64,000 nucleotides of DNA from assembly GCA_002842465.1 (NCBI GenBank), contig PHDA01000001.1, positions 62,001 to 126,000 of the forward strand, written 5' to 3'. The position numbers were made by a program, and so were the translations under genes. Below are positions 20,711 through 62,080 of this stretch, one piece after another. The notes under the pieces were generated by a model. It saw nothing but the letters and a program-made list of their open reading frames with translations. It had not been told where the DNA came from and ran no database searches. Each line of letters starts with the position of its first letter. The stretch's first letter is position 1. The stretch comes from Bacteroidetes bacterium HGW-Bacteroidetes-7. Its GTDB lineage: Bacteria; Bacteroidota; Bacteroidia; Bacteroidales; UBA932.

Positions 20711-21007
20711 ATGGAGAGAATATTTGCAAAAAGTACCTTAAAAGCCTTTTGGATTGCTCATCCGAGTTCAGAGCAATACTTAAAAACCTGGTATGACACG
20801 GCAATGAGTGCAAATTGGAGCACCCCTAATGAAGTAAAGCAATCATATATTAATGCAAGTGTTCTCAGAGATAGTCGAATTGTTTTTAATATTAAAGGAA
20901 ACAAATACAGGCTGGTAGCAAAATTTAATTTTAAAAAGCAGTGGATTTTTATTCGCTTCATTGGAACTCATATTGAATACGATAAGATCGATGCAAATAC
21001 AATTTAA
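20711..21007 (+). CDS. higB: HigB-type mRNA interferase toxin
   Basis: HigB-family pattern: SYINASVLRDSRIVFNIKGNKYRLVAKFNFKKQWIFIRFIGTHIEYDKID. Confidence 0.88.
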   Translation: MERIFAKSTLKAFWIAHPSSEQYLKTWYDTAMSANWSTPNEVKQSYINASVLRDSRIVFNIKGNKYRLVAKFNFKKQWIFIRFIGTHIEYDKIDANTI

Positions 21008-21462: not shown

Positions 21463-22668
21463 ATGAAAAAACTCATTCTTATATTATTTATCGCCATTAC
21501 CGCATGTCATAATAGCAATGATAGTCAATCAAAAGATTTGAGAGTTATCGATGTAGAGAATGGAGTGGGTAAGGGCCGATTGGTTAAGCTGTCGGAGATT
21601 GCTGAGTCAATTGAGTACATTCCTCTTGAGACAAATAGTGAATTGGTGCTTGGGAAGATATTTTATGACAGGATTTTCTACGAAAATGGGATTTTCTACT
21701 TGATGGAACGGAATCAGTCGACAATACTTTTTGATAAAAAGGGCAGGTATTTAAACAAAATTAGCAAACCGGACAAAGAGCCTCGTATTGCAGGTATGTC
21801 ACTGGATGTTGATGTTGACCTTAACACGGGAAACATTTTACTAATGGATAAACAAAGAATTTATGAATACTCTACGGCCGGTGAATTGATTAAAACTGTC
21901 AGTTTTCGAGACAATCCTCTGCTAACAAATTTACATTTAAATCGTTTCAAAAAGATTGATCAAAACTACTATCTGCTTTTGCATGTGAATCAGAATACAA
22001 TGTATTCTCTTGTGTTGCTTGATACGGCAACTGAGATAACCTCAAAAATTATGTATCCCCAAGAGGATTATGAGATTTTTTCGGGAAAGCCTCTTCAGGT
22101 AGCTCAACCCAACTTTTTCAAATACAAAGAGAGCGTCAGGTTAATTAACGGCTATAGCAATTGTATATTGAGTATAGATAAAGACCATAATATCGATACT
22201 GCCTATTTTTTGAATTTTGGCATATACAGAGCGGATATTAATAATCCTGATCAATTCTCTTTTAAAGCACCGTGGTTGTGGTCTCGATTCGAGATCTATG
22301 AAAGCGACACATATCTTTTTATGACCTATCATTTGGGCTCCCTTTCTGAAAATCCCGCTAAAGTGATTGGAAGAAGAGGCCCTTATGATTACCAACATGA
22401 ATGCTCGGTTTTCAATAAAAAGAGCGGGGAGTTTCAATTTATTCATCAGCCCGAAATCAACCAGCTGGGATTTGTGGAGGATTTTGAAGGCGGTCCGGCT
22501 GTCTGGCCAAAATATGTAAGTTCAGATGGATATCTGATAACCTACATGTATGCCCGCGATTTTAAATCCCACGCAGAGACACATAAAGTCTCGAATAAAT
22601 TCAAAAAGATTGCCCAAAGCATGAATGATACCGATAATCCGGTTATTGTGCGTGTTAAGCTAAAATAG
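21463..22668 (+). CDS. 6-bladed beta-propeller lipoprotein
   Basis: lipobox ITACHNS; SIEYIPLETNSELVLGKI opening motif of the family. Confidence 0.75.
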   Translation: MKKLILILFIAITACHNSNDSQSKDLRVIDVENGVGKGRLVKLSEIAESIEYIPLETNSELVLGKIFYDRIFYENGIFYLMERNQSTILFDKKGRYLNKISKPDKEPRIAGMSLDVDVDLNTGNILLMDKQRIYEYSTAGELIKTVSFRDNPLLTNLHLNRFKKIDQNYYLLLHVNQNTMYSLVLLDTATEITSKIMYPQEDYEIFSGKPLQVAQPNFFKYKESVRLINGYSNCILSIDKDHNIDTAYFLNFGIYRADINNPDQFSFKAPWLWSRFEIYESDTYLFMTYHLGSLSENPAKVIGRRGPYDYQHECSVFNKKSGEFQFIHQPEINQLGFVEDFEGGPAVWPKYVSSDGYLITYMYARDFKSHAETHKVSNKFKKIAQSMNDTDNPVIVRVKLK

Positions 22669-22691: not shown

Positions 22692-22729
22692 TAAAGTGCC
22701 TGCTTAAGATTAAAGTGCCTGCTTAAGAT
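22692..22729. repeat. perfect 19-nt tandem duplication (taaagtgcctgcttaagat x2)
   Basis: direct sequence; junction lies inside the TAA stop of the hydrogenase-like ORF. Confidence 0.97.
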
Positions 22730-24122
22730 TTTTTCTGGCCAGCGACAGGGGAGCAAGTGATGAGGGCCCGTTAATACAGCCTCCGGGGCATGCCATTACC
22801 TCAACAAACTGTGCCTGTGGTTTTTTTATCATACTTTTTAGAATGGCAATATTCTGTTTGGTGAGGCCATCGATACACATTGATGAATAGATCTCGCCTG
22901 TTGCGTGAGCAACAGCCTCCTTTACGCCTCCTGACTGGGCAAAACCTCTGCCAAAGTTTGTGACTTCGGGATCAGGCAACGACTCTTCACACTCGCGCAC
23001 ATCAACTTTATATGCAGCCAGGAATGCTCCTACCTCTTCGAAACTCATTACATAATCTACTTCTGGAACAGAATCTGCCTCGTGTCTTTTTGCCAGGCAT
23101 GGGCCAACAAACACAACCTGTGCATCAGGGTTTCCCTCTTTAACGCGACGAGCGGTATAAACCATGGGGCTTTTGGTGTGAGAAACATAGGGCTTAAATG
23201 CAGGGGCGTGTTTTTCTACCCACTCTGTATAAGCAGGGCAGCATGAAGATGTCATAAAAGCATCTCCCTTGTTTATGCGCTCGACAAGCTCTGCGGATTC
23301 ATGGCGGGCTGTATCCTCAGCACCGAGGGCAACCTCAACAACCTCGTCGAATCCTATCCGTTTCATTGCTGTAATTATCTGTCCGGGTGTGGCGTCAAAC
23401 TGCCCGAATATTGCCGGAGCTACAATTGCTACTATTTTAACACCGGGGCGAGATGCCATCTTATGGATATCGACAATCTTCGATCGCTCCATAATCGCAC
23501 CGTATGGGCAAGCTTGCATACAGCGACCGCAATAAATACATTTATCCTTGTTAATATTTTCGGTACCATCTGAATTCTTGGTGATTGCCTTTACCGGACA
23601 AGCCTCCTCACAGGGTACCGGTGTATAGATTATTGCATGATATGGACATACCTTCTGACATATTCCACAGCTCACGCAGTCCTCCTGAGTTATAATTGCT
23701 TTGCCCTGTTTGAAGGATACCGCACCTTTTGGGCAGTTCATCAGGCAAGGGCGCCCTTCGCATCCGCGGCACATATTTGTAATGAAGTACTGTGATTGCA
23801 TACAGGCGCTACACGCCTCATGTACAACCGAGAGAATTGACTCCTTTACATTTTTATTGTCGAGTGAGCGTTGAGCATAGGTGTCAAGAGAGATGAGGTC
23901 AATATCTTCGTCCTTAATATCAAAGCCAAGTATTGAGATTATTTTGTGTTTTATAATATAGCGGTCTTTGTGTACGCAGCAATCAATGTTACGTTTTTCC
24001 CTTGGACGCATCTCAACGGGAATTTTCTTTATGTCTTCGACCAGTTTTTCATGGATCAGGATTTTGACAAGACGAATAAGCAGTTCCCGCTTTGCCAGCA
24101 TCGCATAATTATCATACAGCAT
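22710..24122 (-). CDS. [FeFe]-hydrogenase-like protein with ferredoxin clusters
   Basis: L1 TSSCCPAYTEW, L2 VGPCLAKRHE, L3 VMACPGGCINGP H-cluster motifs; multiple CxxCxxCxxxCP. Confidence 0.88.
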   Translation of the reverse strand: MLYDNYAMLAKRELLIRLVKILIHEKLVEDIKKIPVEMRPREKRNIDCCVHKDRYIIKHKIISILGFDIKDEDIDLISLDTYAQRSLDNKNVKESILSVVHEACSACMQSQYFITNMCRGCEGRPCLMNCPKGAVSFKQGKAIITQEDCVSCGICQKVCPYHAIIYTPVPCEEACPVKAITKNSDGTENINKDKCIYCGRCMQACPYGAIMERSKIVDIHKMASRPGVKIVAIVAPAIFGQFDATPGQIITAMKRIGFDEVVEVALGAEDTARHESAELVERINKGDAFMTSSCCPAYTEWVEKHAPAFKPYVSHTKSPMVYTARRVKEGNPDAQVVFVGPCLAKRHEADSVPEVDYVMSFEEVGAFLAAYKVDVRECEESLPDPEVTNFGRGFAQSGGVKEAVAHATGEIYSSMCIDGLTKQNIAILKSMIKKPQAQFVEVMACPGGCINGPSSLAPLSLARKNLKQAL

Positions 24123-24366
24123 CGTTAAGGGCCTCTTTTAAAATTTGCATTAAATTTGATTTACTTACTCCCGAAATTGTCTTCCCATTAACCTGAATAT
24201 AGGGCGGTTCTCCTACATCTCCACATAACCCCATACATGGTGAATAACTTACAGAGAGGCGTTTCATAAAATCATCAGGCAAAAGTTCAAGCATAGCTCG
24301 CAGTTCGGCTCCTCCCATGACATAGCACATAGTTCCCGTACAAATTTTCAGACTTATCTTTTCCAT
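24112..24366 (-). CDS. NuoE-like [2Fe-2S] thioredoxin-fold protein
   Basis: CTGTMC...CMGLC cysteine pattern. Confidence 0.8.
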   Translation of the reverse strand: MEKISLKICTGTMCYVMGGAELRAMLELLPDDFMKRLSVSYSPCMGLCGDVGEPPYIQVNGKTISGVSKSNLMQILKEALNDAV

Positions 24367-24396
24367 TGCCGTTTATAATAAATTAAATGAGTGTTT

Positions 24397-25581
24397 TTAG
24401 ATATAACTAATGTCAACATCTTTTAGCCATTTGCTTTCAAGAAGTGATTTTATCTTTTTGACCACATTTCGCCTTATTTCCAGCTCTATGGGCAGTGTAG
24501 GGTCCTGATGTGCGATATTAATGCGTGTTCCCACCAGAAAAGTTATCTTATCGCTTTCTGCTAGTAATTTTAAAAATTTCTCGGCCGGACCATCCTTGTT
24601 TTTAGCTTCATACTCCTCTTCTGAGAGTATTCTTTCTACCTTGCTAAGGGTAAGGATTCCTTCGGTAATGAGGTCTATACCATCCATTTTAGAAATAGGG
24701 GGAAGTTCTCTGTCTGAGGGACTTATATCTGTACTTATTGAGCGCCCTGTCTCTCTGGAAATGATTTGTGCTGTTGTTCCTCCACAAACTATCTTTGTAC
24801 CTTGAAAATCGTTTATATAATTGCTCAGGTATCCATCATTCTTTTCTTCATAAGGAGGGCCTGTGCAAACTAAAAGATTGCGGGGTTTGCGCATGTATAT
24901 TACGCAGCAGCTTGTGTCGTCTTTTAGTGCCGAAAAGTCGTTCTGCTCTGCTTTAATTACAATGCGACGAGACAGGTCTTTGGCAGAGATATTCGGGCTT
25001 TTGCTTACAACCATTGAGATATAATCTTTCGCTCCATCTTCCCATCCAAATGGCATGTTGCGATTACCCATTCCCGATTGGCTCACACCATCGCTGAAAA
25101 ATATTATACGGTCCTCCTTAAGCATTCGGAAATCAGATATAAGCAAATGGGTATTGTCAAGATCTTCGCGTTCTACAGGTATCTTTTTTTTGGGGATATT
25201 AACAAATTCTCCATTTCTGAGCAAGTAAAAGGAGGGGGATTCATACTCGGCTATCCTTACGTTACCAAAGCAGTCTATTTCGCACAGGCAAAAAGTTGAA
25301 TAACTGATTTTGCGTATGACATCCAGTGGCAGTGTTTTAAGAACAGATGATGCTGAGTCCATAATATCCTCGTTCAGAAGCGAGAAGTTGAGCAACATCG
25401 AGGAGGTAATTGTTGAGAGAACGCTGGCTTTGATACCGCTTCCAAGTCCGTCAGACAATACGCTTATTACACGGCCCTCCTCTTTGAACTTGTGAGACAT
25501 GAAAGTATCTCCGCAAACGATATGTCCTACCTTGTTCTTCTGACAGCAATCGACCTCTATGAAATCACCGTTAACTCTCAT
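24397..25581 (-). CDS. SpoIIE-family protein serine phosphatase
   Basis: GDTFMSHKFKEEGRVISVLSDGLGSGIKAS and IIFFSDGVSQSG motifs; start set at MRVNGDF. Confidence 0.85.
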   Translation of the reverse strand: MRVNGDFIEVDCCQKNKVGHIVCGDTFMSHKFKEEGRVISVLSDGLGSGIKASVLSTITSSMLLNFSLLNEDIMDSASSVLKTLPLDVIRKISYSTFCLCEIDCFGNVRIAEYESPSFYLLRNGEFVNIPKKKIPVEREDLDNTHLLISDFRMLKEDRIIFFSDGVSQSGMGNRNMPFGWEDGAKDYISMVVSKSPNISAKDLSRRIVIKAEQNDFSALKDDTSCCVIYMRKPRNLLVCTGPPYEEKNDGYLSNYINDFQGTKIVCGGTTAQIISRETGRSISTDISPSDRELPPISKMDGIDLITEGILTLSKVERILSEEEYEAKNKDGPAEKFLKLLAESDKITFLVGTRINIAHQDPTLPIELEIRRNVVKKIKSLLESKWLKDVDISYI

Positions 25582-27304
25582 GGTGCAGCTCTTTGTTTTG
25601 TGCCTCTTTCTGATCATAGGCCTCTATAATTGAGCGAATTGTGGAGTCTGTGTAAGCGGCGTTTTCGCCCAATAGCCCTGCTACCTTCTGCACTGTGGTC
25701 ATATGGTTACGAATAACCTCTCTCGCTCTCTCCAGAATCCATTCCTTCTTCACACTTGGTTCATTCAGGCTTTGCAGAAGGCCAAAGACTTGCCTGTTTG
25801 GCTGGAGGTTATATATTGACAGCAGCCATGTCTTGCCATTATCTGTTATTCGTCTCTCTCGCAACTCCTCTCCGGTAGCAAATGCTGTGCGGAAAAAAGG
25901 CTCGAATGAACACACCTTGTTTATTGAGGCTCCTGTCATGCCAGGCATAAGATCATAAACTGATAATAAATCATCCCCCATATAGGCCGCAAAGGTTCGG
26001 TTCATATCTACAACCTTCAGATCGGAGTTTACGAGTATTACACCTGCCGGAATCTTCTGGAGCAAAACAGTCGCCTTATCGTGGGCAATCTTACGCATAT
26101 ATGATGCACACATATTGTCTTCTGCTCTCCTGTTTAGCATCGCAACGGCAAAATCGCGACATGTATCGTACCCGCAACTACTGCAATTGAGTTCGTCCTC
26201 GGCTGTTGTTTTACCTACAGTTGCAAGGGCTGCTTTTATTTCGATCTGGGTGTAATCGTGTGTGTTTTTTTGAAAGTCCCGATGAAATTGGATGTTTAAG
26301 TCAAGGTGAGAGAAATCTTTATGTGGCTCTTCAGTTTTGCATCGGCCAATGATATCATAACGTTTTTTTGCAATCGAAAACGAATTAAGTTTTGCGGGGC
26401 CATTAACGCACCCTCCGCTACATGCAAGCAGCTCCAGAAACATAGGGTCGGTGTACTCGTTGGGATTGAGCTCGTTTAGTACACTTTTTATAACATCAAT
26501 CCCTGAAAAGGCCATATAGTGTAGGGGTTTCGGGAGTTTGTGCAACCCTGCCAGCATGCCACCTTCAATCGGATATGCGGCGCCAATGTGAGAGTTGTAT
26601 GGAATAAACGCCTCTACGGTATTATCAGAGATATAATTGATTGGCAACTCTCCCTCTGATTCAAGCCATTCACTCAGATCTTTAAAGGTGATTGCTACAT
26701 CTACAAGTTGGTTAAAGTGGTCTGATTCTGTTTTTTTGCTGATGCACGGTCCTGCAAAGATTATCTTGATATCATTGCCGTACATCTCCCGCAACATCAT
26801 TGCATGTGCAAGCATTGGGGATACAATTGGTGTTATATTGTCTACCAGAGAGGGAACATATTTTCGGATATAGTCCACAATCACCGGGCAGGCCGATGAT
26901 ATGTGAATCTTTCCAGATGACTCTCCAATATATTGTTCTGTTTTTGCAGATACCACTTCTGCCCCTAGTGCAGTCTCAGAGACCCCTGTGAAACCGAGGC
27001 GCTTGATTGCAGCAATAAGGCTTGATGTGGGAATGTCTCCGAATTCACTCACATAAGAGGGAGCTAATGACATATACACCTTTCCGGGATGCCTGCTTAA
27101 CGTAAATTTGGCCCGGGTAAGTCCGTCACGTACCTTCTTTGCACCTGTAGGACAGACCTGTGTGCAGTGCCCGCAATATATACAACGCTCCTCAATTATC
27201 GAAGCCTTGTTTCCTTCGACCATTATGGCCTTTACAGGACATTCCCGGATGCATTTATAGCAGTCCTGACAATTCTCGGGCTCTGTATATATGGGCTTTA
27301 GCAT
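25571..27304 (-). CDS. sensory-type [FeFe]-hydrogenase-like protein with FeS and PAS domains
   Basis: L1 SSACPVI (Ala at proton-transfer Cys position), L2 AGPCISKKTE, L3 LLACSGGCVNGP; CSSCGYDTC FeS domain; C-terminal PAS (IPAGVILVNSDLKVVDMNRTFA). Confidence 0.88.
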   Translation of the reverse strand: MLKPIYTEPENCQDCYKCIRECPVKAIMVEGNKASIIEERCIYCGHCTQVCPTGAKKVRDGLTRAKFTLSRHPGKVYMSLAPSYVSEFGDIPTSSLIAAIKRLGFTGVSETALGAEVVSAKTEQYIGESSGKIHISSACPVIVDYIRKYVPSLVDNITPIVSPMLAHAMMLREMYGNDIKIIFAGPCISKKTESDHFNQLVDVAITFKDLSEWLESEGELPINYISDNTVEAFIPYNSHIGAAYPIEGGMLAGLHKLPKPLHYMAFSGIDVIKSVLNELNPNEYTDPMFLELLACSGGCVNGPAKLNSFSIAKKRYDIIGRCKTEEPHKDFSHLDLNIQFHRDFQKNTHDYTQIEIKAALATVGKTTAEDELNCSSCGYDTCRDFAVAMLNRRAEDNMCASYMRKIAHDKATVLLQKIPAGVILVNSDLKVVDMNRTFAAYMGDDLLSVYDLMPGMTGASINKVCSFEPFFRTAFATGEELRERRITDNGKTWLLSIYNLQPNRQVFGLLQSLNEPSVKKEWILERAREVIRNHMTTVQKVAGLLGENAAYTDSTIRSIIEAYDQKEAQNKELHHES

Positions 27305-27543
27305 TTGAATTCCTCCTTTAATATTTTGCAAAGACGGGAGAGATTTACATTCTCGTAAACCTTCTCATCTATGACAATAACCGGACCTCTGCTACACATA
27401 TTTTCGCAGAGGCGCCCGGTAAATGTGAGTTCGGCGTCTAATGTGTTGTCCTGGATAAATTGTTTTATAACCTTAACGTTAGCACTATTTCCACGACTGA
27501 AACAAGAGCTGCCTAAACATATTTTTATGGTGCGTTTTTGCAT
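27298..27543 (-). CDS. NuoE-like [2Fe-2S] thioredoxin-fold protein
   Basis: CLGSSC...CENMC cysteine pattern. Confidence 0.8.
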   Translation of the reverse strand: MQKRTIKICLGSSCFSRGNSANVKVIKQFIQDNTLDAELTFTGRLCENMCSRGPVIVIDEKVYENVNLSRLCKILKEEFKC

Positions 27544-27569: not shown

Positions 27570-28562
27570 CTACCTTTTTAGTCTCTCTGTGAGCAGAGGG
27601 ACAATCTTCTTCACATCTCCCACGATTCCCAAGTCAGAAGATTGGAAAATTGGTGCGTATTTGTCTTTGTTAATGGCAATTATATAGTCTGACTCCTCCA
27701 TTCCTGCAAGGTGCTGTATTGCTCCTGAAATACCAAGTGCAAAATAGAGATCGGGTCTGACTGTTTTACCTGTCTGACCTACCTGACGATTGTGGGTAAC
27801 AATTCCTGCATCAACCAGTGCGCGAGAAGATGACACCTCTGCTCCAATTGTCTGCGCAAACTCGCGCAGTTTATCGAACCCTTCGGAATTGCCCACTCCC
27901 CGGCCTCCCGAAACAAGGATATTTGCCTCAGTGATATCTACTAAATTTCGCTCCTCTTTTACGGTCTCCAGTAATCTGACACGGAACTTTGAACTGTCGA
28001 ATACGGGTGTAAAATTGATAATCTCGCCCTTGCGGCTCTCATTGCGAGGAGCGGTGCACATAACACCAGGCCTTACGGTTGACATCTGAGGGCGATGCTC
28101 TTTGCAGGTAATTGTTGCCATCATATTGCCGCCAAAGGCAGGGCGGGTCATCATAAGATTTCCTTCATCTGAAATTTCCAGAGCTGTACAGTCGGCTGTA
28201 AGACCGGTAGATAATCTTGCTGAGAGCCTCGGGCCTAAATCGCGTCCGATTGTAGTAGCGCCTATCAGAATAATACTTGGCTCAAATTTTACTCCAATCT
28301 GGTATAGTGCCTGAGTATAAGGCTCAGTCATATAGTGTTTTAACTGGGGCGAATCGGCAACAATTACCTTGTCCGCTCCGTATGCTATGCAATCATCTGC
28401 AAGCCCTTTGATATTATCACCAAGCAGCAGTGCACATACTTTTTCACCATTTTTAGCGGCCAATTCTACAGCCTTACCAAGCAATTCAAGGGATACACTC
28501 TGAATGACGCCCTCCCGCTGCTCAATAAAAACATAAACATCTTTATATATCGTTTTATCCAT
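27570..28562 (-). CDS. etfA: electron transfer flavoprotein alpha subunit
   Basis: VSGGRGVGNSEGF, SSRALVDAGI, GQTGKTVRPDLYFALGISGAIQHLAGM FAD-binding motif. Confidence 0.95.
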   Translation of the reverse strand: MDKTIYKDVYVFIEQREGVIQSVSLELLGKAVELAAKNGEKVCALLLGDNIKGLADDCIAYGADKVIVADSPQLKHYMTEPYTQALYQIGVKFEPSIILIGATTIGRDLGPRLSARLSTGLTADCTALEISDEGNLMMTRPAFGGNMMATITCKEHRPQMSTVRPGVMCTAPRNESRKGEIINFTPVFDSSKFRVRLLETVKEERNLVDITEANILVSGGRGVGNSEGFDKLREFAQTIGAEVSSSRALVDAGIVTHNRQVGQTGKTVRPDLYFALGISGAIQHLAGMEESDYIIAINKDKYAPIFQSSDLGIVGDVKKIVPLLTERLKR

Positions 28563-28564
28563 AA

Positions 28565-29350
28565 CTATCGTATAATGAATTTCTCTTTAAGTTTGTTTAC
28601 AATTATCTCTACGGCTTCATGCGGTTCTACCTCGTGAAGTTGGCCTGCAGATTTTGCACCTCTGGTAAATGATTTGGCTACACGGGTAGGAGAGCCCCCC
28701 AATCCGAGTTTTTTCTCATTTACATTTATCTGTTCGAAGCCCCATATGTCAATATCTTTGTCAAACGCCTCTACGATTCCGCAAACTGACATATAGCGCG
28801 CTTTGTTTGCACTCGAAAGGACTGTAAGCACACACGGAGTTTCAACCTCCAGGATCTGATAACCCTCTTCTGTCGCCTTTTTTACTGTCAACTTTCTATT
28901 ACCATCGTATTTAACATCTTCAACGTATGTGATTTGAGGCAAATCCAGGTGCTCGGCTATCTGTGGCCCTACTTGTGCCGTATCGCCGTCAATGGCCTGG
29001 CGTCCTGTAATTATTATATCAAAATCCATTGTACGCAGTGCTCCTGCCAGTGTATTCGATGTTGCCAGAGTATCGGCACCGGCAAACTTGCGGTCGCTCA
29101 AAAGAACTCCCTTGTCTGCCCCCATTGCGAATGCTTCACGGATTATAGCTTCTGCCTTCAACGGTCCCATTGTGATTACCGTTATTTCGGCACCAAATTC
29201 ATCTTTCAGCTTCAGGGCCATCTCCAGACCTCCTTTGTCATCCGGATTCATGATGCTGGGCACACCTTCCCGGATCATCGTTCCCGTAACCGGATCCAAC
29301 TTTATCTCTGTTGTATCAGGTACCTGCTTTATGCATACTATTATCTTCAT
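28565..29350 (-). CDS. etfB: electron transfer flavoprotein beta subunit
   Basis: KIIVCIKQVPDT, TGRQAIDGDTAQVGPQIAEHL. Confidence 0.95.
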   Translation of the reverse strand: MKIIVCIKQVPDTTEIKLDPVTGTMIREGVPSIMNPDDKGGLEMALKLKDEFGAEITVITMGPLKAEAIIREAFAMGADKGVLLSDRKFAGADTLATSNTLAGALRTMDFDIIITGRQAIDGDTAQVGPQIAEHLDLPQITYVEDVKYDGNRKLTVKKATEEGYQILEVETPCVLTVLSSANKARYMSVCGIVEAFDKDIDIWGFEQINVNEKKLGLGGSPTRVAKSFTRGAKSAGQLHEVEPHEAVEIIVNKLKEKFIIR

Positions 29351-29362
29351 AATTTCTCAGTG

Positions 29363-30502
29363 TTATTTAAGTATGTGTGCAGCGATAACCATTTTTTGGA
29401 CTTCGCTGGTGCCTTCATATATTTCGGTGATTTTTGCATCACGCATCATCCTCTCAACAGGATATTCTCTTGTGTATCCGTAACCACCATGGAACTGAAC
29501 AGCTTTGGTTGTCATCTCCATTGCAGTTTCGGCAGCAAAAAGTTTACACATTGCAGCATCTGTCGAGTAGGGGAGCTTCTGATCTTTTTTCCATGCAGCT
29601 GACCGTACGAGCAGTCGGGATGCCTGTATTTTTGTTTCAAGATCGGCCAATTGGAACTGAGTATTCTGGAATGCCGAGATTGGTTTGCCGAATTGTTTTC
29701 TCTCTTTTGTATATTTAATAGTTTCGTCCATGGCTCCCTGGGCTATGCCAAGTGCCTGAGAAGCAATGCCAATTCGGCCTCCGTCAAGAGTTTTCATGGC
29801 AATGCCAAACCCTTTGCCAACCTGCCCAAGCAGGTTTTCTTTGGGAACAATACAGTTCTCCATTATCAATTCGCATGTGGCTGAGCCGCGGATTCCCATC
29901 TTCTTCTCCTTCTTGCCCACCGAGAAACCGGGGAATTTTGTCTCAACAATGAAGGCTGAGATTCCACGTGTTCCCTGTGACTTGTCGGTCATAGCGATAA
30001 TTATATTCACATCTGAATATGCGGCATTGGTTATGAAAATCTTGGTACCGTTAAGAAGCCAATGGTCTCCCATATCAACGGCTACAGTCTGCTGACCTCC
30101 AGCGTCAGTACCCGCGTTAGGTTCTGTAAGCCCAAAGGTGCCAATCCACTCTCCACTGGCGAGTTTAGGAAGGTACTTGCGTTTTTGTTCCTCGGTTCCG
30201 TGCTCCCATATTGGGGCGCAACAAAGCGAAGTATGTGCCGAAACCACTACACCAGTTGTGGCACATGCCTTAGAAAGTTCCTCCACACACATTGAGTACA
30301 ACTGGTTGTTACCACCTGCTCCTCCGTATTCCACAGGGAATGGAATACCCATAATTCCGAGCTTTGCCATCTTTTTTACGGTTTCCATCGGGAAACGTTC
30401 CTGCTCGTCAATCTCAGCGGCCAGAGGCTTAACCTCTTTCTCTGCGAACTCCCTAATCATCTGCAGGAACAACTCCTGCTCTTTACTAAGAGAAAAATCC
30501 AT
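29363..30502 (-). CDS. bcd: acyl-CoA (butyryl-CoA) dehydrogenase
   Basis: FGLTEPNAGTDAGGQ, YTKERKQFGKPISAFQ, QFHGGYGYTREYPVERMMRDAKITEIYEGTSE. Confidence 0.93.
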   Translation of the reverse strand: MDFSLSKEQELFLQMIREFAEKEVKPLAAEIDEQERFPMETVKKMAKLGIMGIPFPVEYGGAGGNNQLYSMCVEELSKACATTGVVVSAHTSLCCAPIWEHGTEEQKRKYLPKLASGEWIGTFGLTEPNAGTDAGGQQTVAVDMGDHWLLNGTKIFITNAAYSDVNIIIAMTDKSQGTRGISAFIVETKFPGFSVGKKEKKMGIRGSATCELIMENCIVPKENLLGQVGKGFGIAMKTLDGGRIGIASQALGIAQGAMDETIKYTKERKQFGKPISAFQNTQFQLADLETKIQASRLLVRSAAWKKDQKLPYSTDAAMCKLFAAETAMEMTTKAVQFHGGYGYTREYPVERMMRDAKITEIYEGTSEVQKMVIAAHILK

Positions 30503-30515
30503 ATTATTGTTGTGT

Positions 30516-31871
30516 TTAGTTATTCCAAATATCTGAGTCACTCGGCACCTGTATACGAGCCGATAGAGGAGCTACACGTGTAATGTTTAGCAAGTGTTTG
30601 TAGGTGAAATTCTCCGATATGGAGTTATTTCCCCAGCTTCCGCAACCAAGTGTATTGGTGACGGCAAGTCCGTTTTGTATAGACCCACCGGCAGTTGTGG
30701 CGCAAATTGCATTTACAATTACACGGGAAACAGAGAGGTCGGTGCCCGCCTTGATTATATTGGCCTGGCTATTCGAGTGGATTCCGGCAGTATGACCGCT
30801 ACCTTCAAAGGTTAGATTGGTCTCTGCAATTTCTAAAGCTTCGTCAAAGTAGCCATAAGGAATTACCGCCAGTACCGGGAACATCTTCTCTTTGCAGATA
30901 ATGTCTGCTTTTCCAACCCCTTTGGCCTCTATTATCAAAACTTTGGTATCATCAGGAACTGTTATTCCTGCTGCTTTTGCAATAGCGATAGCTGATTGAC
31001 CGATCAACTCCTTTGTCATAATTCCATCGGTAAAAATGGTGTCAACAACCTGTTGGCGTAACTCCTCCGGTACAACATAACCTTTGTTGCGTCTAAAGGC
31101 TTCAAGAACCTCTTCGCGGCACTCCTTTGGATATATGGCGCTTTGCTCTCCGGAGCAGATAATTCCGTTATCAAATGAACGTCCGGTAACGATTTTTCCT
31201 GCTGCCAGGTCATAATCGATATTTCGGTCAAGAATCACCTGCACATTACCCGCACCAACACCAAACGATGGCTTGCCTGATGAATAGGCTGATTTTACCA
31301 TTGGCATTCCACCTGTGGCTACTACTGTATCACACTTTCTCATAAGCTCCTGAGTCTTCTCAAGTGAAGGTTCCTCTATCACCTGAACCATCCCTTCCGG
31401 CACGTTCATGGGAGCGATAGCCTTGATTATTGCCTTGACTGCAGCTGCTGAGCACTTTTTTGCTTTTGGATGGGGAGAAATTATGATAGCATTCTTGGTT
31501 TTTAGTGCAAAAATTATCTTTGACATAGGGGTTACAATAGGGTTTGTCATTGGAGTAATTCCGGCAACAACGCCTATTGGTTTTGCTATCTCGATAAGTC
31601 CTGTCATTTCGTCTATGCTCAGAATGCCCATCGATTTTTTCCCCTTAAGGTTATTCCAAACACCTTTTGATTTGTTTCGGTTTTTGGCGACTTTATCTTC
31701 ATAAACGCCCATCTCTGTCTCCTCTACAGCCATACGTGCAAGCTCTTCGGCATTATCGAAGATGGCGCGTGCGGCCAGTTTAATTGTCTGATCTACATCG
31801 TCCTGGTCAAATTGTACCTGGTAAGCGGCCTGCGCTTTGCGCGCCAGGGCAATCATCTCTTTAATCTCCAT
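30516..31871 (-). CDS. sucD: CoA-acylating aldehyde dehydrogenase (succinate-semialdehyde dehydrogenase, SucD type)
   Basis: NGIICSGEQSAI catalytic Cys; GITPMTNPIVTPMSK; context with 4-hydroxybutyrate genes. Confidence 0.85.
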   Translation of the reverse strand: MEIKEMIALARKAQAAYQVQFDQDDVDQTIKLAARAIFDNAEELARMAVEETEMGVYEDKVAKNRNKSKGVWNNLKGKKSMGILSIDEMTGLIEIAKPIGVVAGITPMTNPIVTPMSKIIFALKTKNAIIISPHPKAKKCSAAAVKAIIKAIAPMNVPEGMVQVIEEPSLEKTQELMRKCDTVVATGGMPMVKSAYSSGKPSFGVGAGNVQVILDRNIDYDLAAGKIVTGRSFDNGIICSGEQSAIYPKECREEVLEAFRRNKGYVVPEELRQQVVDTIFTDGIMTKELIGQSAIAIAKAAGITVPDDTKVLIIEAKGVGKADIICKEKMFPVLAVIPYGYFDEALEIAETNLTFEGSGHTAGIHSNSQANIIKAGTDLSVSRVIVNAICATTAGGSIQNGLAVTNTLGCGSWGNNSISENFTYKHLLNITRVAPLSARIQVPSDSDIWNN

Positions 31872-31889: not shown

Positions 31890-33005
31890 TTAAAATAATT
31901 CCGTGTATATACCCCTTATATCATCCTCCGAGAAGGGAACATAATTATTGTTGAGCAGACGTTGCTGACCAACAAGTACGCTTTGTGTGAAACTTTCGAT
32001 CTCTCTCTCCTGCATTCCGTAAAAACTTAGTCGGTTTTTTGAAGTCAGATGCCCCAGGAGCTCATCAAGCTTTGTGTAAACCATCTCTTCTGAGGTGTTG
32101 AGCAACTTTGCATACAGTTCATTAACCTCCTTAATAGCTCCCTGAGGTCTCTTCTTATTGTAGAGTTTGAAAACAGAGGTGAAAAACTGGTAGTTGGCCT
32201 CACCATGCGGCACATGGTAAACTCCTCCCAGCGGGTATGAGAGTGCATGAACTGCCCCTACACCTGTGTTTCCGAATGCTACTCCGGCATAGTTGCTTGC
32301 AATCAGCATATCTTCAAGTCTTTCAAGAGAGTACTCCTGCCCCTTTAGGGCAATATTGGTAAACACGTCAATAATGATGCTGATGGCTTCGCGGCAGTAC
32401 ATCTTTGTATATGGGTTCGATTTTGGCGAAACATAAGACTCTGTGGCGTGTATAAGTGCATCTATGGCGCTGAATGCAAAGAATTTAAATGGCAGCCCCT
32501 TTAGAAGTTCAGGAATCAGTACGGCATCATCGGGTAATAGAGTGTCGTCTGCTATTCCCATTTTGGTATTTTTTGCCTTGAGTTCGGCGATTGAGATATT
32601 GGTCACCTCGCTGCCTGTTCCGCATGTGGTTGGAATGGTGACAAGTTTTTTCTGCTTAACAATTGGAACTTTTCTTTCGAAAACTTCAGAGATATCAGAA
32701 ACTTTGTTGATTACAAGGAGTTTAGATACATCAATAACAGTACCCCCTCCAATAGCCACAACTCTGTCATACTTTAAATCTGAAATATCGGCGAGTATCC
32801 TGTTTATCATTTGGTCAGAGGGCTCGCCGGAGCCGTATTTCTCAATCATTACGAACAGACACTTAAGGTCTGTTTTCTCTATGTACGACTTGTAGAGGAA
32901 GTCGTGTGTAAGAACCAGATCATTGGGGCCAAGTTCGAAGTTGCAGGCAAACTCTGCAAAAGTGTCAAAGCGGCTGACAGTTGTTTTTAATTTGAATAAC
33001 TGCAT
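31890..33005 (-). CDS. 4hbD: 4-hydroxybutyrate dehydrogenase (iron-type alcohol dehydrogenase)
   Basis: Fe-ADH motifs VAIGGGTVIDVSKL, TIPTTCGTGSEVT, DALIHATESYVS, HALSYPLGGVYHVPHGEAN; context. Confidence 0.87.
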   Translation of the reverse strand: MQLFKLKTTVSRFDTFAEFACNFELGPNDLVLTHDFLYKSYIEKTDLKCLFVMIEKYGSGEPSDQMINRILADISDLKYDRVVAIGGGTVIDVSKLLVINKVSDISEVFERKVPIVKQKKLVTIPTTCGTGSEVTNISIAELKAKNTKMGIADDTLLPDDAVLIPELLKGLPFKFFAFSAIDALIHATESYVSPKSNPYTKMYCREAISIIIDVFTNIALKGQEYSLERLEDMLIASNYAGVAFGNTGVGAVHALSYPLGGVYHVPHGEANYQFFTSVFKLYNKKRPQGAIKEVNELYAKLLNTSEEMVYTKLDELLGHLTSKNRLSFYGMQEREIESFTQSVLVGQQRLLNNNYVPFSEDDIRGIYTELF

Positions 33006-33013
33006 ATTGTTCT

Positions 33014-34306
33014 CTATTTATTAAACCGTTTTTTGTACTCTTCTTTCAGCTCATCACGGAAATCCGGATGTGCAATTGCTATCAGTGCCTCTGCCCTTTG
33101 AGCAAGGGTACGCCCTTTGAGTTTGGCTACTCCGTACTCGGTCACAACATAATCAACATCGTTTCTGGATGTTGTTACCGCTGCGCCCGGGCTCAGGAAC
33201 GGAACTATTCTCGATACCTTTCCTTTAGAGGCGGTAGCCGGAACGGCAATTATCGACCTGCCCCCTTTTGAAACAGATGCTCCGCGCACATAGTCAACCT
33301 GACCTCCTGTGCCGCTAAATTGCTTAGTTCCTATGCTCTCTGCATTCACCTGACCCATAAGGTCTATCTCGATGCAGGAATTAATTGAAACCATATTGTC
33401 GTTGCGACCTATAACAGCCGGGTTATTTACATAGTCAACAGGCAGCATTTCGACAGATGAATTGTTATGAACAAAGTCATACAATGCCCGTGTTCCCATA
33501 AGAAATGTGGCTACCAGTTTACCGGGATGGAGCGTTTTAAGGCGTCCGTTAATAACCCCGGATTTAACCAACTCCATTGCACCATCCGAGAACATCTCCG
33601 TGTGAATTCCAAGGTCTTTTTTCTCTTTCAGAAATAGCAATACAGCGTCGGGAATTGCACCTATGCCCAGCTGGAGTGTATCTCCGTCATTAATTAGTGA
33701 TGCGCAGTTACATCCGATTTCACGCTCCACATCGGTGATTGACGGAAGCGGAATCTCGGGTATCGGGTCTGCACACGGCACAATACAATCGAATTTGGAT
33801 AAATGGACTTTATTAATTGAGCCGACATATGGCATATATTCGTTCACCTGAGCAATTACAATGCGAGCTTTTTCAACTGCTGCTTTAGTGTAATCGCATG
33901 ATAAACCCAGACTGCAATAACCTTCATCATCAGGAGGCGACACATTGATAATGGCAACATCAACAGGGAAGATATTGCCGATCAGCTGTGGGGTATCCTT
34001 GAAAAAGCAGGGGATGAAATCGGCTTTCCCCAGTGAAGCAGACTCTCTTGAAGCCCCGCCTATAAAATTTGTAATGTGATGAAAATGTTTTGCATTTTCC
34101 GGTAAAAGATAATCTCCGTAACCTAGAGGCAGCATATGGTATATGTGAAGGTTGCTGAACCTCTCTTTTTGCGCAACCAATTCACGCATTATAACCTGTG
34201 GATTGGCTGCTGCATGTGAACATACTATATAATCCGAATCGTTTATCACGCCAACTGCATGGGCGGCTGAAACGATCTTGTCTCTGTATTGTTCTTTCCA
34301 GTTCAT
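33014..34306 (-). CDS. abfT: 4-hydroxybutyrate/acetyl-CoA-type CoA-transferase
   Basis: LQLGIGAIPDAVL, IHTEMFSDGAMEL, GGQVDYVRGASVSKGGRSIIAVPATASKGKVSRIVPFL; context. Confidence 0.88.
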   Translation of the reverse strand: MNWKEQYRDKIVSAAHAVGVINDSDYIVCSHAAANPQVIMRELVAQKERFSNLHIYHMLPLGYGDYLLPENAKHFHHITNFIGGASRESASLGKADFIPCFFKDTPQLIGNIFPVDVAIINVSPPDDEGYCSLGLSCDYTKAAVEKARIVIAQVNEYMPYVGSINKVHLSKFDCIVPCADPIPEIPLPSITDVEREIGCNCASLINDGDTLQLGIGAIPDAVLLFLKEKKDLGIHTEMFSDGAMELVKSGVINGRLKTLHPGKLVATFLMGTRALYDFVHNNSSVEMLPVDYVNNPAVIGRNDNMVSINSCIEIDLMGQVNAESIGTKQFSGTGGQVDYVRGASVSKGGRSIIAVPATASKGKVSRIVPFLSPGAAVTTSRNDVDYVVTEYGVAKLKGRTLAQRAEALIAIAHPDFRDELKEEYKKRFNK

Positions 34307-34313
34307 CGGTTAT

Positions 34314-35777
34314 TTATTTTCCATTTTGCTCCTCATTTATCATTGCAATCTCTTTGGCAAGCTGCTTCTTACCCTCAAGATCTCCTTGTCTGGCAATCAT
34401 TACTCTCTGTGCCTGCGGAGAGCCGGCTCCATGCATCGATTCGGTGCGGTAACCAACTGCTGCAGTACCCAGTGTGATATTTTCTATCAGTCTGAGGATT
34501 CGCATACGGTTTTCAGTTGAAACACCCTCTACCCCTTTCAGATACTTCTCTACGTAAGCTCCAACTTCGGGGCTGCGGAAATCCTGCTCCGATGGCATTG
34601 TAACCATAAGACCTCCCGCGATATCTTCTGCAAGGCGGGCTATCTCGTATGGCATACGGGTGATATTCTGCTTGCAGACATTGGCAAGCAACAGGTTAAC
34701 AATATAGTTGCCTGCAGGCATCGACTCTCCCTCTGCCGAACATGCTATACCGCAGGCATACAGGGTTTCATTCAGGTGAGTCATCTCTATGAGTTTGTCT
34801 TTGATGTGGCTTGCCTTGGCAGCTCCATTGTAATCGGCAGCTACTGCTGAAGCACCAATCAGTACATCGCCAACGCCAACCTTACACCCACCGTATGACT
34901 GGCGGTGGTATCCTGCGAACCTTTCAACCATCATTCCTGCAAAATCATACTCACGGCACATGAAGATGCGCTCATTAGGAACAAAAACATCATTGAATAT
35001 TACAAGAGCCTCGTGACCACCAAAGCGAGCGTTACCCAAGTCAATATCTGCTCCTGACTCCATTTTACGAGTGTCGCACGATTGCCTTCCGTATATCATA
35101 ATAACCCCTTCTGCATCAGATGGAACAGCAAAAGAGACTGCATAATCCGCATCCTCCTCTTTCATTGCAACTGTAGGCATAATAAGGTGTTCGTGTGAAT
35201 TAACGGCACCTGTCTGATGTGCCTTGGCGCCTTTAACAATAATTCCTTCGGGAAGAACTTTTACAATCCGAAGATATTGGTCGGGATCTGCCTGCTTTGA
35301 CGGAGAGAGACCGCGATCTCCTTTAGGATCGGTCATTGCGCCGTCAACTGTAAGGTCGTTCTCCTGTACAAACTTCAGATAGTCGGTAAAACGTCTGTGA
35401 TACTCTGTCCCATATTTTTTATCTATTTCGTATGTAGTCGAGTATATCGCGTTAAATGCGTCCATTCCCACACAACGCTGAAAACATGACGCTGTCTTTT
35501 GTCCCAGAAGGCGTTGCATCTTGACCTTTTTTACAAGGTCGTCTGTATTCTGATGAAGATGGCAGAAGCGGTTGATAGTTTTACCTGTGAGATTAGAAGT
35601 TGCTGTCATAAGTTCACGGTACTCCGGCTTTTCGGCAAGCTCATAGGTCATTGCAACAGAGTTCATTGATGGCTTGATCATTGGATGATCAACAGGGTTG
35701 TCAACAAGTTTGCCCATAAGGTAAACCTTTAGATTCATCTTCCTAAGGCTTTCGATATACTGCTCTTTTGTCATCAT
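34314..35777 (-). CDS. abfD: 4-hydroxybutyryl-CoA dehydratase / vinylacetyl-CoA isomerase
   Basis: SCFQRCVGMDAF and HLNETLYACGIACSAEG cluster-ligand segments; GAKAHQTGAVNSHEHLIMPT. Confidence 0.93.
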   Translation of the reverse strand: MMTKEQYIESLRKMNLKVYLMGKLVDNPVDHPMIKPSMNSVAMTYELAEKPEYRELMTATSNLTGKTINRFCHLHQNTDDLVKKVKMQRLLGQKTASCFQRCVGMDAFNAIYSTTYEIDKKYGTEYHRRFTDYLKFVQENDLTVDGAMTDPKGDRGLSPSKQADPDQYLRIVKVLPEGIIVKGAKAHQTGAVNSHEHLIMPTVAMKEEDADYAVSFAVPSDAEGVIMIYGRQSCDTRKMESGADIDLGNARFGGHEALVIFNDVFVPNERIFMCREYDFAGMMVERFAGYHRQSYGGCKVGVGDVLIGASAVAADYNGAAKASHIKDKLIEMTHLNETLYACGIACSAEGESMPAGNYIVNLLLANVCKQNITRMPYEIARLAEDIAGGLMVTMPSEQDFRSPEVGAYVEKYLKGVEGVSTENRMRILRLIENITLGTAAVGYRTESMHGAGSPQAQRVMIARQGDLEGKKQLAKEIAMINEEQNGK

Positions 35778-35939: not shown

Positions 35940-36125
35940 CTAAGTGACAGTAACATGAATTGGCAGGTCTTCTGACTAACACACTCTTTCCAACACCTTC
36001 CCGGTCATAGTGACCAGTGGTTGCAGATTTTTTCGGAACGTTCTCGTGCTTCACAGCAGCGGGCCTGTCCGGGACTCACACCCGGTTCCCTTTTAATCAA
36101 TACGCCTGTTAAGGAGTATCGAAAC
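35940..36125 (-). ncRNA. cobalamin (B12) riboswitch candidate
   Basis: minus strand reads AAAAGGGAACCGGGTGTGAGTCCCGGACAGGCCCGCTGCTGTGAAGCACGAG...ACCACTGGTCACTATGACCGGGAAGG...AGTCAGAAGACCTGCC (B12 box at 35962-35977). Confidence 0.93.
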
Positions 36126-36136
36126 CAATTCGGGTG

Positions 36137-36144
36137 CAAATGTA
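36137..36144 (-). promoter_or_regulatory. -7 promoter box TACATTTG upstream of the riboswitch
   Basis: minus-strand TAnnTTTG match just 5' of the riboswitch aptamer; TTG at 36166-36168, ~21 nt upstream. Confidence 0.5.
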
Positions 36145-36393: not shown

Positions 36394-37542
36394 TCAAATA
36401 TTACAAAACTTCAATTTTATAATAAAAATATCAATGTCTGAGTCTGGAAGCTGACTCATTTTGTGTAAAATATAGTCTTTGAGATTTGTTGTTTTTGATA
36501 ATACCTCTTTAACAGCGTCGTTGTCGCGGTAAACTACCGAGTAAAAATAGTTTGAGTCTGATGCCATAATAAAAAAAGGGTCGTTGTTGCTGCTTTCATA
36601 AGCCCATCGGAACCCTTTGTTGTTACTCTTAGATAAAATAAAATCGTTCTGCAATGCATCTGGGCCAATCGACGAAAAATAGAGATGTTCCTTTGTATCA
36701 TGAATATGTATCGGGAGCTTATAGTAATCCGAAAATAAATAGTTTTTCATCCCCTCAAATAAATCGCCACCATTATTAAAAATATACTTAAGCGGAATTG
36801 CTTGTTGTTGAAAATCAATTTTTAAAAATGGAATGATATCTTTTCCGATTTTATAAGCAATATTATCGCCCTCCTGAGGTCTCATAATCGTTGACTTGTC
36901 ATATGACTGAGTAAATATTCCCTGAGTAAATACAAAGTCTTTCCTAGGTAAGAATTCTCTAATCTTCACTCCATTGTTGTCAAATTGAGTAAGAGCATAA
37001 AAATGCTCTTCAAAATTAGATTCGTCAGGAGGATTTGAAGAGAACAGGTAAAAACCTCCATTATCGGACGCACAAATTGCGTCGTAATTAACCTGTTCAA
37101 AATTTATCTTTAAAACAAACTTGCCGTCACTTATTTTATATTTTGATACACCGCTTGAATGGAGGAGCCAGATGTACTCACCATCAGGGGTTATGCACAT
37201 ATCAGTAATATCGGTATATTCGCCTGGTCCGCGCCCTTTATTGCCGATACTTCCGATATATTGTCCGGTTTCATCAATAACTTGAATGCCTAGGATTTCG
37301 TCTTTTAAAATAAAGTTATCATTATTATCAATTAAGATCTTAGATACCACAGATATAATATCTCCAGAGCTACTTTGTACCGGGATAAAGATTAATGTGT
37401 CCACAAATAATGAAAAATCATCGGTATAAGTTGTGGTTTTCAGTGGTACAATTGTCTGTATTGTCTCATTTTCAAGCCTATTGCAGCTAATCAAGACAAA
37501 GATTACCCACAAAAAATAGAAAGGTAAACGAGGCTTTTTCAT
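36394..37542 (-). CDS. 6-bladed beta-propeller lipoprotein
   Basis: lipobox LISCNR; IGNKGRGPGEYTDI family motif. Confidence 0.82.
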   Translation of the reverse strand: MKKPRLPFYFLWVIFVLISCNRLENETIQTIVPLKTTTYTDDFSLFVDTLIFIPVQSSSGDIISVVSKILIDNNDNFILKDEILGIQVIDETGQYIGSIGNKGRGPGEYTDITDMCITPDGEYIWLLHSSGVSKYKISDGKFVLKINFEQVNYDAICASDNGGFYLFSSNPPDESNFEEHFYALTQFDNNGVKIREFLPRKDFVFTQGIFTQSYDKSTIMRPQEGDNIAYKIGKDIIPFLKIDFQQQAIPLKYIFNNGGDLFEGMKNYLFSDYYKLPIHIHDTKEHLYFSSIGPDALQNDFILSKSNNKGFRWAYESSNNDPFFIMASDSNYFYSVVYRDNDAVKEVLSKTTNLKDYILHKMSQLPDSDIDIFIIKLKFCNI

Positions 37543-61721: not shown

Positions 61722-62080
61722 TCCACAAATATAACATTAAGGTATGATATTATGAAGTTGACACCTTAATTGGGAGTTGGTTATGGAGGATTAAGTCAGG
61801 ATACAACATTTTCATACAGAGAGGCCTTTATAGCGCGTTCGGCAGGCAATCCTGCATAGTTGGCACAATATCTTTTTATTGTAATTATTTGTTGGAATAC
61901 ATTTGTGGCTCAGCAAAAGTTTGTTGTAATTTGGTTAGTAGGCCAGGTTGTTCTGATAAGAGCAATCTGGCTTCGTGTTTCGCACCGGAGGTTTTGCGCT
62001 TCCGGGAAGAAAATACGCACACTCAGACAGCCGGTATGCTTCTTTACTCCCCATCTCTTTATAAAGGTAATGCATGAATA

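Follow-up and report, generated by a model that had tools for sequence, protein, structure and literature searches.

In the draft genome of Bacteroidetes bacterium HGW-Bacteroidetes-7 (GCA_002842465.1; 2.4 Mb, 92% complete), a block of five genes encoding a sensory-type [FeFe]-hydrogenase (HydS), a SpoIIE-type PPM phosphatase, a group B [FeFe]-hydrogenase (HydB), and two small [2Fe-2S] proteins forms the tail of an operon for butyrate formation from 4-hydroxybutyrate, at the head of which lies a cobalamin (vitamin B12) riboswitch. The stretch analyzed, hereafter the window, comprises 64,000 nucleotides (positions 62,001 to 126,000, forward strand) of a single 158-kb contig (PHDA01000001.1). 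On balance, we regard it as slightly more likely than not that an Hfs/HydS-type cassette for sensing H2 or redox state has become the 3' part of this operon and would operate with it by the mechanism proposed below. The sensor type is already known; the unusual part is its fusion with a B12-riboswitch butyrate operon.

Operon Organization

The twelve genes lie on the minus strand, are tightly packed (largest gap 30 bp), and follow the riboswitch in the order abfD, coenzyme A (CoA)-transferase, 4-hydroxybutyrate dehydrogenase, sucD, bcd, etfB, etfA, [2Fe-2S] protein, HydS, phosphatase, second [2Fe-2S] protein, and HydB (Table 1). Several of the butyrate-gene names combine family matches under curated cut-offs with gene context; abfD is so named because its relatives in Bacteroidales and Clostridia, to which it is 73–85% identical, adjoin 4-hydroxybutyrate pathway genes. 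The final five genes (22710–27543), some of which overlap, stand in the order described by the initial annotation, and open reading frames (ORFs) and family matches confirm it. The further proposal that this block belongs to the same operon as a B12-controlled butyrate route, and lies downstream of it, is upheld by the short gaps, by the high-scoring riboswitch match, and by the junction of etfA with the first [2Fe-2S] gene, where a minus-strand terminator-like site was looked for and none was found. At the junction of the two operon halves, promoter-like sites are no commoner than in shuffled sequence. The butyrate genes and the five-gene block are probably carried on one transcript. An assembly chimera was ruled out, as the operon is situated inside the contig and Bacteroidales bacterium UBA5548 has the same gene order.

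A survey of 80 named abfD loci showed the fusion in UBA5548 alone. The abfD genes of UBA5548 and the window are 97% identical, and the riboswitch, seven butyrate genes, first [2Fe-2S] gene, HydS, and phosphatase of UBA5548 are in the window's order. The UBA5548 HydB is 93% identical and on the same strand, with coordinates that fit just beyond the fetched stretch, provided that the contig numbering is shared, as it appears to be. The spacing leaves room for a predicted second [2Fe-2S] gene.

Sensor, Phosphatase, and Hydrogenase

HydS most likely starts from the ATG at 27304 rather than from the listed TTG at 27331; this ATG overlaps the stop codon of the preceding gene as ATGCTAA. All four H-cluster cysteines are intact (Cys 139, 187, 295, and 299), the cysteines of the C-terminal iron-sulfur (FeS) motif are also kept, and Ala138 replaces the proton-transfer cysteine. 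The hydrogenase part of the earlier description of this protein as a PAS-containing hydrogenase stands; the PAS part falls below threshold in Pfam and is considered further below. The adjoining phosphatase retains four aspartates (25, 44, 164, and 222) that are invariant in 18 homologs, which rules out a dead enzyme, and its AlphaFold2 model (mean predicted local distance difference test score, pLDDT, 86.3) matches PPM phosphatases in the PDB, SpoIIE included; 3pu9 and 5mqh are among the matching entries. The C-terminal domain of the phosphatase is predicted to form a separate alpha/beta fold (pLDDT 88.4) and is well conserved (mean column identity of 66% in an alignment of 42 sequences); it has no Pfam match, a profile search of the PDB gave nothing better than E 0.005, and Foldseek nothing better than E 0.011.

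The last gene of the operon was initially read as a ferredoxin-type hydrogenase, an assignment that can be refined to a group B [FeFe]-hydrogenase, and its translation holds the motifs TSSCCP, GPCLAKR, and MACPGGC. A hydrogenase of the same class (TIGR04105) in gut Bacteroides has been tied to fermentative H2 production (PMC12578642), although the window copy shares its operon with genes for a sensor, a phosphatase, and butyrate formation. The genome encodes HydE, HydF, and HydG, so that missing maturases were ruled out. Other contigs encode four more [FeFe]-hydrogenase-type proteins, one of which is a second HydS-like protein.

Distribution of the Five-Gene Block

Such modules had been placed mainly in Firmicutes-type anaerobes. 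This distribution does not hold, because the phosphatase (match threshold E 1e-10) is carried by 88 of 247 genomes sampled from the window's own order; abfD is rarer (7/247). The exact five-gene block recurs in 11 of 40 fetched loci (L039–L045, L047, L057, L061, and L069), and this conservation in other genomes argues against a chance array. Most of the other fetched loci have HydS and the phosphatase, usually with the first [2Fe-2S] gene and often beside bifurcating-type hydrogenase genes. The block is usually free-standing or beside other hydrogenase genes. A genome of the window's genus (G224, locus L077) encodes a phosphatase 46–47% identical to that of the window and a separate group B hydrogenase, with no abfD match.

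Table 1. Features of the riboswitch-headed operon, in order of transcription (window coordinates).
Feature	Position	Strand	Evidence
Cobalamin riboswitch aptamer, operon head	35945..36144	-	RF00174, 113.3 bits vs. gathering score 31.5, E 1.3e-27
abfD, 4-hydroxybutyryl-CoA dehydratase, operon gene 1	34314..35777	-	HpaB-like family match
CoA-transferase, probably 4-hydroxybutyrate CoA-transferase	33014..34306	-	TIGR03948, 319.5 bits, under its cut-off
Iron-type alcohol dehydrogenase, probably 4-hydroxybutyrate dehydrogenase	31890..33005	-	Fe-ADH families including NF058672
CoA-acylating aldehyde dehydrogenase, probably succinate-semialdehyde dehydrogenase SucD	30516..31871	-	CoA-acylating aldehyde dehydrogenase families
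bcd, acyl-CoA dehydrogenase	29363..30541	-	NF042972, 524 bits, under its cut-off
etfB	28565..29350	-	NF040731, 353 bits
etfA	27570..28562	-	NF042970, 364 bits
Thioredoxin-like [2Fe-2S] protein 1	27298..27543	-	PF01257, 1.4e-9
HydS, sensory-type [FeFe]-hydrogenase with C-terminal FeS motif, PAS-like domain, and conserved output helix	25571..27304	-	PF02906, 5e-42; PF04060, 5.3e-9
PPM (SpoIIE-type) serine/threonine phosphatase	24397..25581 or 24397..25617	-	PF07228, 6.9e-11
Phosphatase C-terminal alpha/beta domain, unclassified	24400..24894	-	Last 165 residues; conserved separate domain in model
Thioredoxin-like [2Fe-2S] protein 2	24112..24366	-	PF01257, 1.9e-7
HydB, group B monomeric [FeFe]-hydrogenase	22710..24122	-	TIGR04105, 506.8 bits vs. 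cut-off 450

The surroundings of the operon (20711–21007, 21463–22668, and 36394–37542) include a HigB-type toxin gene near its 3' side and genes for DUF5128 six-bladed beta-propeller proteins on both sides.

Comparison with Known Systems

The hfsABCD operon of Thermoanaerobacterium saccharolyticum and relatives encodes a PAS-containing [FeFe]-hydrogenase (HfsB), a serine-phosphatase-like protein (HfsC), and a ferredoxin-linked [FeFe]-hydrogenase (HfsD), and the window block resembles it in gene content and order (PMC5707799, PMC11837493). When hfsA or hfsB is deleted, adhE expression rises and more ethanol is formed (PMC5707799). Unlike hfsABCD, the window block has a group B terminal hydrogenase and two thioredoxin-like [2Fe-2S] proteins, belongs to a Bacteroidales host, and closes a butyrate operon headed by a B12 riboswitch.

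The Ruminococcus albus hydS/hydA2/adhE cluster (PMC6776011) also pairs a sensory [FeFe]-hydrogenase, there of group C and with a PAS domain, with a putative Ser/Thr phosphatase, and the two genes are co-transcribed with those for a further hydrogenase and a fermentation enzyme; H2-sensing feedback was proposed, and the cluster is down 111-fold in co-culture with an H2 consumer. In R. albus this further hydrogenase is of group A1 and fermentation leads to ethanol through AdhE, whereas the window has a group B enzyme and a 4-hydroxybutyrate/butyrate route. An arrangement intermediate between the two is found in locus L089, where an AdhE-like gene lies just upstream of the sensor block. HydS of Thermotoga maritima (group C) resembles the window HydS by description, with H-cluster ligands and an alanine for the proton-transfer cysteine; its hydrogenase part is followed by a PAS domain, that of the window protein by a PAS-like one, and no phosphatase partner is mentioned in the text consulted (PMC10055695). 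The regulatory role of related modules has experimental support from the hfs deletions and from R. albus, and by analogy the window module may have a regulatory role as well.

A cobalamin riboswitch precedes abfD in Tannerella (PMC7160235), as it does in the window, Porphyromonas, and rumen Bacteroidales. Apart from that study, our literature search found no paper joining an [FeFe]-hydrogenase sensor, or butyrate formation by the 4-hydroxybutyrate route, to a B12-riboswitch circuit. In the loci collected here, RF00174 lies upstream of abfD in 15, including Porphyromonas, with possible overlap between collections (among them L089, L093, L109–L114, L119, L131, L133–L135, and L137); some abfD loci lack it, and most riboswitch-abfD loci have no sensor hydrogenase within the fetched flanks. 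This suggests that B12 control of 4-hydroxybutyrate-route butyrate formation reaches well beyond the window in Bacteroidales. The genome holds just one further cobalamin riboswitch; it precedes an ORF that, on visual inspection of the sequence, looks like a TonB-dependent receptor gene, which would be a typical riboswitch target connected with B12 uptake.

Proposed Mechanism

The genome encodes methylmalonyl-CoA mutase (large subunit far over the cut-off, small subunit somewhat under it). When B12 is plentiful, the riboswitch would presumably lower expression of the operon, so that carbon would pass via this B12-dependent mutase toward propionate. Under B12 shortage, butyrate enzymes and hydrogenase would be produced together; Bcd/EtfAB, if bifurcating, would reduce ferredoxin while reducing crotonyl-CoA, and HydB would discharge the reduced ferredoxin as H2. 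The H-cluster of HydS would be where H2, or the redox state that corresponds to it, is read, and the signal would pass through the C-terminal FeS cluster and the PAS-like domain to the conserved output helix and then to the phosphatase, which would dephosphorylate a regulator encoded elsewhere and thereby adjust fermentation genes. From the riboswitch and the sensor, both evident in the sequence, we infer dual control by B12 and H2. More tentatively, the operon might form a coincidence gate, a version to which we give well under even weight: the riboswitch would admit the butyrate and H2 route only when B12 for propionate is short, HydS and the phosphatase would trim it according to H2, and the C-terminal domain of the phosphatase would represent a novel module that receives a signal or binds the target.

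Several points weigh against the proposal that an H2- or redox-sensing cassette serves this operon. The full fusion is known from two genomes only, co-transcription and ferredoxin reduction by Bcd/EtfAB are both predictions, and folding of the leader RNA gave no resolved expression platform for the riboswitch. The PAS domain of HydS is sub-threshold in Pfam (best E about 0.002); six homologs give PAS-family matches at the same place. A target for the phosphatase was sought in the genome and none was found, and the available parts of the literature on related systems name no target for such an H2-sensor/phosphatase circuit. Finally, at least one H-cluster cysteine has been lost in 8 (L050, L052, L053, L065, L067, L071, L072, and L075) of 27 HydS proteins of a sister clade encoded mainly beside bifurcating-type hydrogenases. 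Since all 27 keep the adjoining phosphatase and a VQ/AQ...LLGE-like output motif, H2 need not be the signal family-wide.

Alternative Explanations

The sister clade bears directly on what is sensed. Besides the lost cysteines, its members show altered CxxxC spacing (24/27) and nearly all keep the C-terminal FeS cysteines (26/27), a pattern in which the output half stands out as the conserved core of the HydS family; the cysteine-poor proteins may be sensors that have given up H-cluster binding. These features, and the inclusion of the [2Fe-2S] proteins in the block, favor a module that reads the redox state of ferredoxin, or of Fe-S centers in general, in place of H2; the PAS-like domain would then be fed by both small [2Fe-2S] proteins together with the FeS clusters that HydS itself carries. 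Against this, the four H-cluster cysteines and the CxxxC spacing are kept in all 16 proteins of the window's own clade, and HydEFG are encoded in the genome. We give redox sensing in place of H2 sensing a fairly low probability for the window module.

A different question is whether the position of the cassette has any meaning. It may have landed behind the butyrate operon as a free-standing unit for general hydrogenase regulation, sharing transcription with no special functional link. In the HydS tree, which was built from Bacteroidales relatives, the window and UBA5548 proteins nest among free-standing blocks (families f113 and f106); the five window genes are 60–72% identical to free-standing blocks in G213 and G113, and most blocks are not near abfD. 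However, a second sensor lineage also adjoins abfD: the HydS-PPM-HydB block immediately precedes the riboswitch and the abfD operon in G101 (L089), UBA4243 (L112), and RUG13648 (L113), and is divergent from abfD in RGIG5037 (L120), where a riboswitch was looked for and none was found. Because these abfD-adjoining sensors fall in a clade far from that of the window HydS (support 100/100, branch length 1.9), the association appears to have arisen independently, at least twice. Such repeated proximity makes chance hard to invoke, the fusion is retained in UBA5548, and a lone group B hydrogenase lies upstream of abfD in L115, so that a cassette without functional connection to butyrate formation seems unlikely. 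In L115 (from 8163), no sensor or phosphatase was detected with this HydB-like gene, a hint that hydrogenase and butyrate genes can be linked in the sensor's absence. In G093, the phosphatase and abfD are on one contig, about 12 kb apart.

As the initial annotation held, no phosphatase substrate is encoded nearby: the operon contains no STAS partner, and no anti-sigma partner lies near the block. A search of the genome found a single stand-alone STAS protein, and it is improbable that the phosphatase acts on it in a classical anti-sigma partner switch: the genome does encode RsbW-like HATPases, and PPM phosphatases of the same kind act on STAS proteins (PMC11418112), but the STAS gene belongs to a transporter-type operon of a different contig that already includes a Cache-HAMP-SpoIIE phosphatase and RsbW, and HATPase, DRTGG, and PHP proteins encoded beside the second HydS-like gene are equally plausible partners. 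The STAS operon (contig C23; L105:3751–10106) lies within a run of NMT1-type ATP-binding cassette transporter genes and looks to be a partner-switch system unrelated to the block. The second HydS-like gene (contig C17; L080:6067–15087) is itself beside genes for a NuoF/HydA/NuoE-type bifurcating hydrogenase.

Implications

The choice among propionate, butyrate, and H2 made by anaerobes matters for fermentation in gut and rumen and for methane. One apparent transcription unit of the window brings together a vitamin-responsive switch, a likely ferredoxin-reducing step, a hydrogenase that would drain the ferredoxin, and a candidate H2 sensor. The H2-sensor/phosphatase circuit proposed for Firmicutes is extended to roughly one in three genomes sampled from the window's Bacteroidales order, and at this locus it could be tested in a single place that links vitamin supply, H2, and the fermentation end product. 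If the coincidence gate is correct, B12 and H2 would jointly decide between propionate and butyrate in some Bacteroidales.

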